This document shows, one piece after another, positions 31,527 through 37,155 of a DNA stretch of 64,000 nt. A model generated the notes under the pieces. It made no database searches and was not told where the DNA came from. It was given only the letters and a program-made list of their open reading frames with translations. Position numbers and translations under genes: made by a program. Numbering within the stretch: the first letter of the stretch is position 1; the number at the start of each line of letters is the position of its first letter. The stretch comes from Planctomyces sp. SH-PL62 (GTDB lineage: Bacteria; Planctomycetota; Planctomycetia; Isosphaerales; Isosphaeraceae): NCBI RefSeq assembly GCF_001610895.1, contig NZ_CP011273.1, positions 5,890,001 through 5,954,000 of the forward strand, read 5' to 3'.

Positions 31527-32000
31527 TCAGGCGAGGCCCTGGAGCACGACCGCCAGGGCCCCGCACAGGACGATCGCCGCGAGGAGCAATCCCGCACACC
31601 CCGAGCCCTTCGCGGCGATCCCATGCCGCCGGCCCAGGTCCTCGACGGCGTCCTTGGCCTCCTTCAAACCCACGCCGGTCCGCTCCCTGTAGAGCTTGAC
31701 GGCCTGGATCTTCTCGTTTCGTCCAAGAAGCGAGAGGAGTTCCGGCTCGATCGCCCGCGAGCCCTTGCCCGGCGTCGGGACTCCTTCCCCGCGGATCATG
31801 GCCTCGACGGCGTCCTTGGATTCCTTCAACCCCGCGCCCGTCGCCTCGCGATAAACCTTGATCGCCTCGATGATCCTCCCTTGCGCCGCGATCGCGCGGA
31901 CGCGAGCCTCCAGCGGATTCGGGGCGAGCTGGGCTCCGCATCCCTCGCAAAACGACGCCTCGGCCGAGACGCCGCGCTCACAGGACGGACATCGCGGCAT
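31527..32000 (-). CDS. Zinc-ribbon membrane protein with two L7/L12-like repeats
   Basis: A 157-residue protein. Residues 1-25 are a zinc ribbon with two CxxC pairs (CPSCERG, CEGCGAQ). Two repeats follow, about residues 38-68 (IIEAIKVYREATGAGLKESKDAVE) and 93-123 (KIQAVKLYRERTGVGLKEAKDAVE). These match the core helix-turn-helix of the ribosomal protein L7/L12 C-terminal domain, which recruits translational GTPases. The last ~23 residues are a transmembrane helix (GCAGLLLAAIVLCGALAVVLQGLA). Function is unknown. The arrangement suggests a membrane-tethered protein with the zinc ribbon and repeats in the cytoplasm, possibly binding a protein partner. Confidence 0.8.
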   Translation of the reverse strand: MPRCPSCERGVSAEASFCEGCGAQLAPNPLEARVRAIAAQGRIIEAIKVYREATGAGLKESKDAVEAMIRGEGVPTPGKGSRAIEPELLSLLGRNEKIQAVKLYRERTGVGLKEAKDAVEDLGRRHGIAAKGSGCAGLLLAAIVLCGALAVVLQGLA

Positions 32001-32043: not shown

Positions 32044-32808
32044 TCAGTGCCTCCTGAAAACGGCGCCCGTGTCGAGATCCAACTCGTAGACCTCGACGTC
32101 GAGCCCGCCGGGAGGGTTCACCGCGAACGCGAGCTTTTTGCGATCGTACGACAGGCGCGGCTGGGATTGAGAAGCATGCGGCGGGGGAGGATCGACCGAA
32201 GAACCGACCGAAAGCTCGCGCGAGGCCTCCTGGCCGCCGCGAAACGAAGTGAGGTCGACGACCAGCGGGCCTTGCTGGAGGGTCGTCGGGATTGGGGCGC
32301 CGGGGGGGAGCTTTTGGAGATTCTTGCCGTCGGCGTCGATCCGCCACCAGTCGGCGGAGCGGGCGAGGCCCGTCGAGGGAGAGACGCGGACGAAGTAGAG
32401 GAAAGAGCCGTCCGCCGAGAACTCGCGGGGGCTGTCCAGGAACGCGCCGCTCGTCAACGGCCTCGGATTCGCCCCCTCGCTCGACATCGACCAGAGATGG
32501 GTCCACCCGCCGACCTGTTTTGCGTAAACGATCGTCTTCCCGTCCGGGGAAAACAACGGTTGGTTCTCGAACGCGGGATCGCGGGTCAACGGGACCGGAT
32601 CTTCGATCCCCTCGCCGCACACATAGAGGTCGCCGCGACCGGACCGAGGGGAAGAGAAGACGATCCGCCCGGTGGTCGGGGAGATCGAGGGCGATCCGCC
32701 CTCGTAACGCCCCGTTTCCAGGAAACGCCCCCAGTCGTCCTCCCCCCGGTCGCAGCCCGCGACGAAGGCGACCGTAAGAAGCGCCGCGAACCACGCGAAC
32801 CCTCTCAT
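32044..32808 (-). CDS. TolB/PD40-like lipoprotein
   Basis: A 254-residue protein with a lipoprotein signal (VAFVAGC, lipidated Cys about residue 19). The mature part holds PD40/TolB-type beta-propeller repeats (SPTTGRIVFSSPRSGRGDLYVC, FSPDGKTIVYAKQVGGWTHLW, FSADGSFLYFVRVS, LSYDRKKLAFAVNPPGG). Five or six blades can be counted, so a full single propeller is plausible. It probably acts as an envelope protein in binding; no catalytic residues are seen. It lies between the zinc-ribbon gene and the metalloprotease on the same strand, with about 40 and 108 bases of spacing. Confidence 0.82.
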   Translation of the reverse strand: MRGFAWFAALLTVAFVAGCDRGEDDWGRFLETGRYEGGSPSISPTTGRIVFSSPRSGRGDLYVCGEGIEDPVPLTRDPAFENQPLFSPDGKTIVYAKQVGGWTHLWSMSSEGANPRPLTSGAFLDSPREFSADGSFLYFVRVSPSTGLARSADWWRIDADGKNLQKLPPGAPIPTTLQQGPLVVDLTSFRGGQEASRELSVGSSVDPPPPHASQSQPRLSYDRKKLAFAVNPPGGLDVEVYELDLDTGAVFRRH

Positions 32809-32916: not shown

Positions 32917-35874
32917 TCAGGGCTCGTTGGCGTAGAGGTTCGCCTTGAGGATCTGGTCGATCCGATGCCGCATCTCGGTGAGATGGGCCAGGGAGGTGTC
33001 ATCGATCTTGCCCTGGTCGCGGGCCACGGCCTCGTCGATCTTGCGGCCGATCTCTTCGAGGTGCAGCCGGGCGAGGTTCTTGGCGTCGGGGGGCGTCGAG
33101 CTTGAGCCGCCGAGCATGACGACGTAGCCGTAAAGCGCCCCGAAGTTGTTGTCGTTCTTGGGGCCGAGGACCATCGCGCCCAGCCGCTTGACGTACTCGC
33201 GCTGGAGGTTGCGGCGGATGGTCGAGACGGCGGCGGGGGACGGCCCGGCCGGCGGCGGGGCCAGCTCGGTGAAGATGCCGTCGGTGAACGCCCGGAAGAC
33301 GTCCTGGATCTTCAGCGGGTTCGAGCCGGGGTCGCTCTGTGCCTCCTGGTTCTGGAGCCTCTGGAGCGTGGCCGGGGCGAGGCATTCGTCGAGCGCGATC
33401 TCCTGGATGTTCAGGATCGCGTTGTAGACGGGATAGCCCGCGCTCCCGCCGGAGAAGTAGCGGTTGTCCTGCCAGGACTCGCGGACCAGCTTGCGGAGCA
33501 GGGCCGGGGAGAACTGGAAGGCCTTGTCCGAGAGGATCCGCTCGACGAGGAGCTTGAGCGCCTCGCGCTGCTTGTCGCCGGCGACCGGGATGACGGGGTC
33601 CTGGGCCTTCTCGGTCCCCTTGAAGTCGCGACGGACGGACTGGCCGCCGATGTGCTCGGCCGCGAGATACGCCCCGTTGCCGAACTGGCTGATACACGAG
33701 CCGAAGGCGGCGCGCAGGCGGCTCCACGACTCGTTGTCGCGGACGACCTTGGCGTCGAGATCCTTCAGCAGCTCGGCCGCCATCTCCATGCGCTGCTTGC
33801 CGTAGGCGAGCGTGTCGTTGCTGAGGTCGTAGGTGTTGACCTGGGGGTCGTTGTTGCTGAAGTCGTCGTCGGTGGCGAAGGTCAGGTCGGGATCGGGGGA
33901 CTTCGCGGCGATCTTCTTCAGCTCGGCCGCCTCGTCCCCCTCGACCTGCTTGTAGGCGTACTCGATCGCCCAGTAGTCGTAGGGGCCGATGGTGGTGGAG
34001 GCGTAATCCCCCTGCTTCTGGCCTTTGGGGGCGACGTTGATCGGGTTGTAGTCCATCACGCTCCCGGCCATCCCCTTCACCCGGGTGACCGCCGTGTCGT
34101 TGATCTCCTCGGGCCTGAGCATGACGCTCGCCTTGAAGTTGTGGCGGAGGCCCAGCGAGTGGCCCACCTCGTGCATCACCACTTCCTTGATCGCCTGGCC
34201 CAGGAACTCCTCGGGGAGTTTGGGCTCGTCCTTCTTCGCCTGGTCCTTATCCTTGTCCTTGTCGTCGCCGTCCTTCTTGGCGTCGTCGAGGGCGAGGCCG
34301 GCCAGCGCCAGCGAGGCGAACCGCATCTCGCTCGACTTGGCGGCGGAGTAGTTGCAGGCGGCCAGGCGGCCCTGGCTCATCCGGCGCTGGAGCTGGGCCT
34401 GGATCGGGTCCCAGCCCATCGGCACGACGTCGAGGGCCATCGGCGCGACGCCCCCGGGGGCGATCGGCAGCCCGACGGCCGCCGCCTTGCGGATGGCGTC
34501 CCGGCGCGAGCCCGGCGGAGGGACGGAGAAGCCGAAGCCCTGCTTGCCCGCCATGATCGGGCTGATCACCTCGACCATCGCCAGCGGGACCACGTCGGCG
34601 GACGGCTCGCCGGGACGGGCGACGGGCGTGGGCACGCCCACGAGCATCGCGTACTCCTCCTTCCACGTCTTGATCCAGCTGGCGTCGAAGATCACGTCGC
34701 CGTCGATCATCTCGCCCGTCAGCGGGTTGCTCCGCAGCCCCGACATCGCGTAAGTCGACCCGGTCGTGATCCAGCGCAAGGTGCAGTAATTGATGTCCTC
34801 GGGATCGAAGTCGTCCTGATCGTTCTGCCAGCGGACCGCCAGCGCATTGGCGAAGCCGATCTTCTCGAACGCCTTGTTCCACTCCAGGATGCCCTGCTCC
34901 ACGTACGGCCGGTGCTCCAGCGGCACGTTGTCCTCGATCCACCAGACGATCTGCTTCTTCGGCGGCGAGAGCTTGGCCTTGGGATCGGCCTTCTCCAGAC
35001 GCCAGCGATTGATCATCCGCCTGGAGTCGGTGTCCGGGTTCGCCTGGCTGTAGTCGGTCACGGCGTTCAGAAAGTGCCCCACGCGGTAGTCGGCCGTCCG
35101 GGGCTTGTAGCTGGAGTCGGGCGCCTTGCAGAGGCTGTAATGGATGACCATCGTCGTCCCCCGAGGGTCGACCACCGGCGACGAACCGCCACCAAAAGAG
35201 TAGTAGCCGGATCGCCCACCCGAGAACGTCGCCTCCACCTGGATTTCGACGTTGTTGGGATACGCGCGGATTTTAAACCAACGCGACCGATTTTTATCAA
35301 AGCCTCCCATGCCGACCTGGGCGAAATCGCTCAAGAAAACATCGCCCAGATCCACGACCAGGCCGCCGCCGTTGGGGCTGATGCTCAGGATCGGCAGCGC
35401 CATGAGGATCGAGTCGGTGTAGTTCTGCTTGACCGCCTTCTCAAGCGGCGTCCCCGCCGCCGCCGTGAAGTGGATGTTCTTGCGGACGAGCTGCAACTTG
35501 TCGTCGACCCGACGGAACGAGAGCACCCACTCGTCGCCGAAATTCAAAGGGTTCCCCGCGCTCGCCCCTCCACGCGCGATCACGATCGGCGCCAGGATCG
35601 GCTGATCGAGCTGATTCGGCTTGATCTCGGCGTAAAGGTGCTGCTCCTTCTCATGCAGCGTGAGAAACCCTTCGTACTTCTTCGAGTCCTTCGTCAGTTC
35701 CGCGAAGTCCTGAAACTTCTTCGGCTCGGCCGGCTTGGCGGCCGTGGGCGTCTTCTCACCCGCCGCGTCGGGCGGCTTGGCCGCCTCCTGCCCCCAGGCG
35801 CCCACCCCCCCCAGCAACACGGCCAGGAACGCCGACGCCCGCGCAGAGTCCGACAATCGCCTCGACACGTCCAT
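32917..35874 (-). CDS. Secreted zinc-dependent metalloprotease (DUF5117/DUF4953 type)
   Basis: A 985-residue protein. The ATG at 35874 gives a signal peptide (RASAFLAVLLGGVGAWGQ); the 36 residues upstream in frame look spurious. A Pro/Ala/Lys-rich linker follows. The N-terminal half matches DUF5117-type proteins (FLTLHEKEQHLYAEIKPNQLDQPILAPIVIARG). The zinc motif is HEVGHSLGLRHNF (from about residue 567), HExxHxxGxxH, with SVMDYNPINV nearby as the Met-turn. A charged insert (KKDGDDKDKDKDQAKKDE) precedes the active site. It should be an extracytoplasmic metalloendopeptidase. Key residues are intact. Confidence 0.92.
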   Translation of the reverse strand: MDVSRRLSDSARASAFLAVLLGGVGAWGQEAAKPPDAAGEKTPTAAKPAEPKKFQDFAELTKDSKKYEGFLTLHEKEQHLYAEIKPNQLDQPILAPIVIARGGASAGNPLNFGDEWVLSFRRVDDKLQLVRKNIHFTAAAGTPLEKAVKQNYTDSILMALPILSISPNGGGLVVDLGDVFLSDFAQVGMGGFDKNRSRWFKIRAYPNNVEIQVEATFSGGRSGYYSFGGGSSPVVDPRGTTMVIHYSLCKAPDSSYKPRTADYRVGHFLNAVTDYSQANPDTDSRRMINRWRLEKADPKAKLSPPKKQIVWWIEDNVPLEHRPYVEQGILEWNKAFEKIGFANALAVRWQNDQDDFDPEDINYCTLRWITTGSTYAMSGLRSNPLTGEMIDGDVIFDASWIKTWKEEYAMLVGVPTPVARPGEPSADVVPLAMVEVISPIMAGKQGFGFSVPPPGSRRDAIRKAAAVGLPIAPGGVAPMALDVVPMGWDPIQAQLQRRMSQGRLAACNYSAAKSSEMRFASLALAGLALDDAKKDGDDKDKDKDQAKKDEPKLPEEFLGQAIKEVVMHEVGHSLGLRHNFKASVMLRPEEINDTAVTRVKGMAGSVMDYNPINVAPKGQKQGDYASTTIGPYDYWAIEYAYKQVEGDEAAELKKIAAKSPDPDLTFATDDDFSNNDPQVNTYDLSNDTLAYGKQRMEMAAELLKDLDAKVVRDNESWSRLRAAFGSCISQFGNGAYLAAEHIGGQSVRRDFKGTEKAQDPVIPVAGDKQREALKLLVERILSDKAFQFSPALLRKLVRESWQDNRYFSGGSAGYPVYNAILNIQEIALDECLAPATLQRLQNQEAQSDPGSNPLKIQDVFRAFTDGIFTELAPPPAGPSPAAVSTIRRNLQREYVKRLGAMVLGPKNDNNFGALYGYVVMLGGSSSTPPDAKNLARLHLEEIGRKIDEAVARDQGKIDDTSLAHLTEMRHRIDQILKANLYANEP

Positions 35875-36552
35875 ACATCGCCTCCCGAATGAAGCCCGAG
35901 GAATCAGCGACCCGTCGCGGGCGCCCCGGCGACCGCACAACCCCCGCAGCCCGCGCATCTCCGATCTTTGACAAAAGTCCAAGTCGATTGCAAGAACCTA
36001 ACCTCGGTCCCGGCGTCCTTCCGCACGACCCTCCTTCCCCGGCCTCCGCTTCGTTCGCCTACGATCGCGGCCGCCACGTCGATCCCCCCAACCCCCGAGG
36101 AGGCCCCCCGCCACTTACATCGAGCTCAGGTCCCCATTTTCGACCCGACGAAGAACGCTTTGAATAGCAGCGAATTCCCGTATCCCGGAGGATCCTGCAG
36201 CGAAATCTCCAGGCATCAGCCTTACGCAAACAACCAGGCTTACCAAGACAAATATCGATACTGAGGAGGACAAGAAAGCCGCCGAAAATGCCACTGCTTA
36301 TCATAGCGTAAAGCTTTATGTTTCCATTTGTCGACATCGCCTTCGCAAATCCAATCGAAACACTCCACAAACCGACATGATCCTTGACAACACCACATGG
36401 GCAAGTGTCTTATAGCAGCGTCCCTCGCACTTCCAAGAATGCAACCCGCCTGCGAGTGACGCGACACACGCTGATTGAGACACCGAATCCGCAGTGGTCG
36501 TTCCGATTGGTCAAGGATGCAACAAACAACGGATTCTCTCGAGGCCCACACC
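35875..36552. other. Gene-free, lower-GC intergenic region
   Basis: 678 bases between the metalloprotease start and the PEP-CTERM gene. GC is visibly below the surroundings, most clearly at 36230-36480. A plus-strand TTGACA occurs at 35968-35973 but lacks a convincing -10 at the right distance. Short open frames on both strands have no recognisable features. Confidence 0.5.
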
Positions 36553-37155
36553 ATGCGAACTCTTCGTCCCCTCGCGCTGCTCGCCGCCTTGGCCGCAGCC
36601 GTCGCGGTCGCCCCCGCCGTCCAGGCCGAGACGGTGCTCTTCGGCACCGACGGCGTCTTCACGTCGAGCGGCACCAGCACGCTCGACCTGGGGAATGGCA
36701 ACTCCATCTCGTTCAACGGCCAGGGGTTCAACACCGCCAACCCCAACCCCTTCACCTTCGCCACCTTCGGCCAGTTCGACACGAGCGGCTTCACGACGGA
36801 CATCGAAACCCCGGTCACGACCGGCTTCGAACTGACCATCGGCCAGTTGGCGCCGACCTTCGGCGAGGCCCAGTTCATCGGCACCATCGCCGGCAACCTG
36901 ACCGTCTCCAGCAGCGGCGTGGTCCTCACGTTCACCTCGCCGCTGGCCGTGATGATCGGGAACATCAAGTATGAGATCCTCTCCTCCGACCTGGGCGCCG
37001 GCACACTCGTCCTGTCTCCTCCGGAGATCAACAACGGCCTGACGAGCATCAACGCCCGGATCACGGCCATCCCCGAGCCGTCGGCCTTCATCCTGATGGG
37101 CCTCGCCGCCCCGGCGGCGTTCCTCTACCGTCGGCGCACCGCCACGGTGGCCTGA
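36553..37155 (+). CDS. PEP-CTERM sorting domain protein
   Basis: A 200-residue secreted protein. The ATG at 36553 gives a signal peptide (LALLAALAAAVAVAPAVQA). The middle is a beta-rich domain (GNSISFNGQGFNTANPNPFTFATFGQFDT, IGTIAGNLTVSSSGVVLTF). The C-terminus is a typical PEP-CTERM signal: IPEPS, then a hydrophobic helix (AFILMGLAAPAAFLY) and RRR. Such proteins are processed by an exosortase and attached to or released at the cell surface, often with exopolysaccharide. No exosortase gene is in the window. A strong intrinsic terminator follows about 30 bases after the stop. Confidence 0.9.
   Translation: MRTLRPLALLAALAAAVAVAPAVQAETVLFGTDGVFTSSGTSTLDLGNGNSISFNGQGFNTANPNPFTFATFGQFDTSGFTTDIETPVTTGFELTIGQLAPTFGEAQFIGTIAGNLTVSSSGVVLTFTSPLAVMIGNIKYEILSSDLGAGTLVLSPPEINNGLTSINARITAIPEPSAFILMGLAAPAAFLYRRRTATVA

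Follow-up and report, generated by a model that had tools for sequence, protein, structure and literature searches.

What would a small bacterial membrane protein do with two copies of a sequence that resembles the factor-binding part of the ribosomal stalk protein bL12 (L7/L12)? The question is raised by a gene of Planctomyces sp. SH-PL62 located within a stretch of 64,000 nucleotides (the window) on contig NZ_CP011273.1. The open reading frame at 31527-32000 of the minus strand has an ATG start and encodes a membrane protein of 157 amino acids. The sequence-only reading of this DNA had arranged the protein as a zinc ribbon, two repeats and a transmembrane (TM) helix, and this order was found to be correct (Table 1). 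The cysteines are spaced as CxxC-x10-CxxC (C4/C7...C18/C21). The zinc-ribbon models of Pfam remained below their cut-offs (PF13240, Zn_Ribbon_1, 20.2 versus 25; PF12773, 20.6 versus 27.3), and thus the label of zinc ribbon is taken from the four cysteines.

Table 1. Positions in the window of the gene and of the parts of its 157-residue product.
Feature	Position	Strand	Basis
Whole gene, zinc ribbon - hairpin - hairpin - C-terminal TM	31527..32000	-	ORF; ortholog with dN<dS overall; profile match
N-terminal zinc-ribbon motif, residues 1-25 (C4, C7, C18, C21)	31926..32000	-	Sequence; 4 Cys kept in congener ortholog
Repeat 1, residues 29-69, three predicted helices (29-39, 43-54, 58-69)	31794..31916	-	AlphaFold2 model, mean pLDDT 90
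Repeat 1 core, residues 43-66, matching E. coli bL12 65-88 (helices 4-5); I at K65 position	31803..31874	-	Profile/hairpin scan
Repeat 2, residues 85-125, three predicted helices (85-93, 97-108, 112-125)	31626..31748	-	AlphaFold2 models
Repeat 2 core, residues 97-120, matching bL12 65-88; 8/8 positions kept (66, 69, 70, 73, 80, 81, 82, 84)	31641..31712	-	Sequence, profile, hairpin scan
C-terminal TM helix, residues 134-156; K/R richer on hairpin side	31533..31601	-	Model helix; charge count

The ortholog from the congener G003 is 62% identical over 156 codons, with dN of 0.27, dS of 0.63, and dN/dS of about 0.43; from these values the gene was concluded to encode a real and mostly constrained protein. 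The identity of each repeat to its counterpart in G003 is about 0.69, and all four cysteines of the zinc motif are retained there. The 14-codon linker between the repeats is 0.21 identical, and in this segment dN exceeds dS. Of the 914 open stretches in the six frames of the window, this reading frame alone matched a profile of the hairpins at E <= 1 (E 8e-43, with two of the 92 profile rows being the protein's own repeats). The presence of the protein is patchy. Matches at E <= 0.001 were obtained in 27 of the 59 genomes searched (its own included), and among five congeners the match was strong in G003, weak in G002, and absent from G001, G004, and G005. Elsewhere in its own genome, a weak hairpin-like stretch (L161, G000:C1:4278868-4278957; E 0.001) is found in an open frame of 145 amino acids, with M in place of R73.

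The proposed resemblance of both repeats to L7/L12 was found to be statistically strong. The Pfam family Ribosomal_L12 (PF00542) matched the 157-residue protein with E 3.5e-14 and 53.3 bits, above the gathering cut-off of 25.9, so that the repeats score as related to L7/L12 in the profile search. The match consists of two stretches, one for each repeat, and the better of them covers only positions 8-37 of the 67 in the profile. The cut-off of a second family, DUF6793 (PF20593), was also exceeded (31.5 versus 27 bits), its best stretch being limited to positions 75-100 of 107 and located on the same hairpin. A dedicated hairpin profile (A3; 92 rows, 47 columns) was built from 90 of the 96 listed hairpins and the two of the window, leaving out the degenerate repeats L018 and L038 as well as L057, L062, L067, and L082. 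When A3 was searched against the PDB (177,635 distinct sequences), bL12 took the first 12 places, with a best E of 3.9e-10 and with the matches confined to columns 15-43; one lower-ranked bL12 match (8yeq) extends over columns 6-41. The profile-profile comparison of the hairpin with L12 gave a score of 59.7 and a probability of 98. The homology of the hairpins to bL12 is therefore well supported by sequence comparison. Besides Ribosomal_L12 and L12, the families that matched over the hairpin at E < 1e-5 were DUF6793, PRK06771 (below its cut-off), and PHROGs, none of them with a function.

The protein is not the L7/L12 of this genome. The rplL gene, encoding 134 amino acids with a full match to the C-terminal domain (CTD), is found at C1:805460, where the preceding reading frame is presumably rplJ; this rplJ-rplL context is absent from the locus at 31527-32000. 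The NCBIfam equivalog for L12 (TIGR00855) was not reached by the 157-residue protein (54.6 versus 84.4 bits), and the N-terminal domain of bL12 for dimerization and uL10 binding was not found in it, with a CxxC motif in its place. In further contrast to bL12, the hairpins are present in tandem and are combined with a zinc-ribbon motif and a TM anchor. In other Planctomycetota, full-length matches to the L12 CTD were observed within long frames of 532 and 594 amino acids (G124:C1:3323756 and G138:C206:58549).

The bL12 CTD has an alpha/beta fold. AlphaFold2 predicted the full protein from a 27-row alignment with a mean pLDDT of 90 and with the helices listed in Table 1, and a single repeat (92 rows; pLDDT 90.8) as three helices without strands. 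Because of this difference the repeat as a whole is predicted not to have the fold of the L7/L12 CTD, which was the structural outcome that the sequence-only reading had named as evidence against itself. A complete alpha/beta CTD is absent: the best match ends at position 37 of 67, both models list only helices, the later part of the CTD is unmatched, and an extra helix precedes the hairpin. What the repeats share with PF00542 is the sequence helix 4-TGxG-helix 5 together with the residues of the factor-binding face, and according to the models the helix pair is the only common element. The description of the repeats as L7/L12 C-terminal domains thus stands for the helix 4-5 hairpin and fails for the remainder of the domain. 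The extra N-terminal helix might cover the factor-binding face.

Residues V66, I69, R73, L80, and E82 of bL12, which we take to be contact sites, were compared together with K70, residue 81, and K84 in 52 distinct hairpins from Planctomycetota. Position 66 was found to be I/V/L in 100%, 69 to be I/V in 100%, 70 to be K/R in 100%, 73 to be R in 98%, 80 to be L in 100%, 81 to be K/R in 77%, 82 to be E/D in 81%, and 84 to be K/R in 90%. These hairpins were taken from the best-scoring loci and include the protein's own two repeats and the weak stretch L161; they exclude L093, whose row is shifted in register, and L160, which is the L12 of the genome itself. All eight positions were kept in 33 of the 52, compared with 29 of 31 true L12 sequences (30 loci and the genome of the window). 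The first relatives had been found with peptide patterns that include KEAKDAVE, so the conservation of these letters is biased, and the count given here was redone on hairpins extracted with the profile. The pattern common to hairpins of the L12/EF-Ts type (hydrophobic 66/69, K70, R73, L80, and K84) is present in both repeats, and in the degenerate repeat of L018 both R73 and L80 are missing.

In bL12, helices 4 and 5 of the CTD bind IF2, EF-Tu, EF-G, and RF3 (PMC6753160), and the resembling segment is indeed, as had been claimed, the factor-binding part of L7/L12. Mutation of either K70 or K84 (71 and 85 when Met is counted) lowers the association with EF-Tu, and K84 forms a salt bridge to D141 in helix D of EF-Tu (PMC4335977). 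Weaker binding of EF-Tu has also been reported for mutants of K65 and K70 (PMC10602876), and the helix D mutant L148A of EF-Tu binds less in live cells (PMC5770553). When the consensus sequences of L12 and of the hairpins are compared, seven of seven residues agree on the face that carries K70 and K84, and four of 11 agree elsewhere in the helices; these faces were assigned post hoc by helix geometry from K70 and K84, with the data already seen. V68, V72, and L86 of L12 are replaced by A, Y, and A. The natural reading of these sequences is that the binding side was held while the packing side was rebuilt.

A common motif in EF-Ts and L7/12 was reportedly described by Wieden in 2001. The hairpin profile aligned with the N-domain of 25 EF-Ts sequences from Planctomycetota over 22 columns, which contain the shared motif V..K.LR..TG.GMM.CK.AL, with an hhalign score of 27.4 and a probability of 84. 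Among the controls, the score did not exceed 15.3 for 150 column shuffles or 17.8 for 150 flanking reading frames, the latter being single sequences rather than alignments. In an earlier version of this comparison, a motif filter had retained 14 of the 25 loci, and the comparison was redone with all 25 and with the controls; L12 itself scored 23.5 (probability 43) against the 14 filtered sequences. By these profile-profile scores the hairpin is placed between bL12 and EF-Ts, the two known binders of helix D in EF-Tu. EF-Ts was absent from the PDB matches of A3 at E <= 1, the curated tsf cut-off was not reached by the 157-residue protein (12.9 versus 104 bits; E 0.045), and the core domain of EF-Ts is not present in it. 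The third helix of the EF-Ts N-domain follows the helix pair and does not precede it as found here.

At least 199 relatives were found in the genome scan, and the 80 that were kept for comparison include, by their record titles, Planctomycetota, Chloroflexi, Acidobacteria, Myxococcota, Actinobacteria, Proteobacteria, Cyanobacteria, and Verrucomicrobia. Among these 80 proteins and that of the window, 114 hairpins were located in 79 proteins, with one to three in each, and none in the chosen frame of the other two (L054 and L059). The order of zinc motif, hairpin, and TM helix was recognized by eye in 15 of the 80 loci, of which 11 are from Planctomycetota or Chloroflexi. At least 35 of 195 Planctomycetota genomes contain a match at E <= 2e-12 that also covers the first helix, one of these with an internal stop. 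Two proteins of the family Isosphaeraceae (L093 and L095) carry two hairpins that differ in type, with L at 68 and the sequence KILLIKALR, and may form a second subfamily. Short actinobacterial proteins annotated as "ribosomal protein L7/L12", such as the Streptomyces plasmid match H5, contain one hairpin of the same family; they differ from the 157-residue protein in having a single copy, no zinc motif, and the TM segment before the hairpin, and several relatives have an N-terminal TM segment. A search of mobile elements with the whole protein returned one phage record and four plasmid records, and the defense models of PADLOC gave only a weak REase match (E 0.0023).

By hydropathy, 53 of the 79 hairpin proteins have a TM segment and 26 do not. 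More K/R residues were counted on the hairpin side of the segment in 48 of the 53, an equal number in one, and fewer in four, in a set of proteins that are not independent, that includes the protein of the window (P0001), and for which the start codon was chosen by eye in up to 22 cases. The excess is found in 22 of 22 proteins with an N-terminal TM segment, in nine of nine with a TM segment followed by an ectodomain, and in 17 of 22 with a C-terminal TM segment. From this excess, a cytosolic position of the hairpin is the most likely one in all three architectures.

We propose, with a probability of roughly 0.4, that the protein is a receptor in the membrane which faces the cytosol and binds EF-Tu or a different translational GTPase. 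It would be a tail-anchored protein of the inner membrane, with a cytosolic part composed of two pared-down factor-binding hairpins. Each hairpin would correspond to helices 4 and 5 of the bL12 CTD and be similar to EF-Ts, without the beta-sheet and with an added N-terminal helix. Its face would dock on helix D of EF-Tu or on the equivalent helix of EF-G, IF2, RF3, or LepA, with EF-Tu as the first candidate among these partners. The two copies could provide avidity, like the several copies of bL12 on the stalk, and a translation factor docked in this manner would thus be held at the membrane. For the zinc ribbon, we presume a role as a further surface for docking. The proposal is supported by the homology to bL12, the helix-only prediction, the kept factor-binding face, and the cytosolic topology deduced from charge; we infer from these the partner, the affinity, and the purpose. 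The GTPase tether that the sequence-only reading had suggested as possible is backed indirectly by the kept positions, the charge count, the EF-Ts comparison, and the phage fusions to RF-1 described below. Counted against it are the patchy presence, the fraction of hairpins that keep the full set of eight positions, and the isoleucine at the K65 position of repeat 1.

In the titles and the opening parts of abstracts in the open-access literature, to which the search was confined, no membrane-anchored protein with an L12 hairpin was found to be described. The protein is a known module, the L12 hairpin, in a new membrane-anchored form and not a new kind of module. If the proposal is correct, then the factor-binding hairpin of the stalk would be a portable module that works without the beta-sheet and without the ribosome, and translation factors could be bound by a dedicated membrane receptor. 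EF-Tu is frequently detected at membranes and on the surface of cells, and we know of no general anchor for it; the hairpin family would then be a direct candidate. The proposal would also explain why small non-ribosomal proteins, H5 among them, are annotated as L7/L12.

Relatives of the hairpin are also encoded by phages. When viral contigs were scanned on the basis of an alignment, 56 loci were identified, mostly with proteins of fewer than 230 amino acids, and at least two of them (L204 and L214) match the L12 profile over almost its full length. In five proteins, which are from phages of Otagovirus and from similar contigs, an RF-1 domain precedes the hairpin (L243:2231-2704, L244:2282-2704, L212, L213, and L238). 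For gp5 of Pseudomonas phage REC, the E values are 4.1e-14 for RF-1 and 4.9e-7 for L12; for the protein of Psxphi15 they are 6.6e-9 and 9.3e-6, and EF-Ts_N (1.4e-4, below cut-off) matches over the same hairpin. The GGQ loop, which is the consensus of release factors, reads GGM in four of these five proteins. As judged from their sequences, the five look like one gene family and are thus probably the result of one fusion event. They provide a context of translation and were counted in favor of a receptor for translation factors. Mizuno et al. (2019) reported bL12 domains inside larger phage polypeptides with the contact residues for EF-G and EF-Tu kept, and suggested that these domains are interfaces for translation factors (PMC6375957). 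Their proteins share with ours the placement of a bL12 domain in varied polypeptides; the relevant passages mention no membrane anchor or zinc ribbon for them, and neither "transmembrane" nor "release factor" is found in the main text (PMC6375957). Since a phage bL12 protein was detected in ribosome fractions (PMC6375957), the use of the hairpin by phages may be ribosomal.

A broader version of the proposal is that, in bacteria from many phyla, membrane-bound hairpins of the stalk type that face the cytosol, and that are single, in tandem, or joined to a sensor-like propeller on the outside, keep a translational GTPase such as EF-Tu sequestered or positioned at the membrane, and that phages adopted the same hairpin in small proteins, including the fusion to RF-1, in order to reach the same factors. 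We regard this generalization as possible but rather doubtful.

The strongest alternative is that the hairpin, whether derived from or akin to those of bL12 and EF-Ts, now serves as a general module for interaction or self-association at the membrane, with a partner that is not a translational GTPase. This is quite possible, if short of even odds. The architectures are varied: an N-terminal TM segment with a coil in Actinobacteria, a C-terminal TM segment, NHL or PQQ propellers as ectodomains after the TM segment, a ClpB-like AAA+ protein by Pfam (L055) with a single C-terminal hairpin, and an esterase. None of the fused AAA+, esterase, and propeller domains suggests a role in translation, and one to three copies are found per protein in the listed loci. 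In an all-against-all comparison of 642 flanking reading frames from 80 of the at least 199 loci and from the window, no widely shared neighbor was found; no cluster exceeded six loci, the largest was entirely from Nocardia, and the largest clusters that cross phyla had four loci. A general module would fit the varied fusions and the missing shared neighbor equally well. However, the GTPase-binding face of L12 is the best-kept part of the hairpin while most other helix positions have changed, and this speaks against a general module. Two long proteins of about 1160-1190 amino acids, from Polyangiaceae and a deltaproteobacterium (L055 and L078, the latter AAA+ by eye only), each end in one hairpin. 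The esterase domain (PF00756) is fused after the TM helix in an ortholog from another genus of the family (G013, L098:5457-6746, minus strand), and with it the anchor carries an outer domain of a second type.

The fold searches suggested a different role, in which the three-helix unit would act like the C-terminal part of eukaryotic eL36, also of three helices, and bind rRNA, making the protein a membrane tether for ribosomes or RNA with help from the zinc ribbon. Zinc ribbons often bind nucleic acid. The closest solved folds of the single repeat are ribosomal chains, which we take to be eL36 (in Foldseek, the probability reaches 0.99 and TM reaches 0.79; in VIA, Z 7.8 and rmsd 1.3 over 44 residues). 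The Foldseek E value is 0.35 at best, and this and a Z below 8 may reflect no more than a common helical arrangement; moreover, eL36 is absent from the 23 PDB sequence matches at E <= 1. We regard a tether of this kind as unlikely. L12 was absent from the fold-search lists, an absence that is not taken as evidence against L12.

That the repeats are of the TPR/PPR type and resemble L7/L12 by convergence is very improbable. In its favor, phmmer matched 6een, a designed PPR protein (E 8e-5), and weakly an alpha-solenoid (4ozs, 0.025), the thirteenth PDB match of A3 was a designed TPR protein (E 1.7e-5), and TPR_WDR35 exceeded its cut-off in the relative L023 (30.8 versus 27). The weak Pfam matches of the 157-residue protein, however, stayed below theirs (TPR_14, 13.3 versus 23.5 bits; TPR_WDR35, 18.5 versus 27), the E value of the best bL12 match of A3 is lower than that of the designed TPR by four orders of magnitude (the twelfth is about equal to the latter), the profile-profile probability favors L12, and the unit has three helices rather than two.

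The neighborhood of the gene is the same in the window and in the congener G003, where the adjoining SDR gene and a large metalloprotease gene further upstream are shared; the gene directly upstream differs, as judged by eye from the lists of reading frames. In the window this upstream gene (32044-32808, minus strand) encodes a PD40 propeller, in which a lipobox-like VAGC was recognized by eye. It was considered as an operon partner, that is, as the split equivalent of the Chloroflexi fusions of zinc ribbon, hairpin, TM segment, and propeller, and was rejected because a different reading frame lies upstream in G003. The metalloprotease (32917-35982, minus strand) is conserved in the congener and contains Met-zincin (DUF4953) and DUF5117, with DUF5118 below cut-off. 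Further along the window, the gene at 36475-37155 of the plus strand encodes a protein that by eye has a PEP-CTERM-like tail (IPEPSAFILMGLAAPAAFLYRRR).
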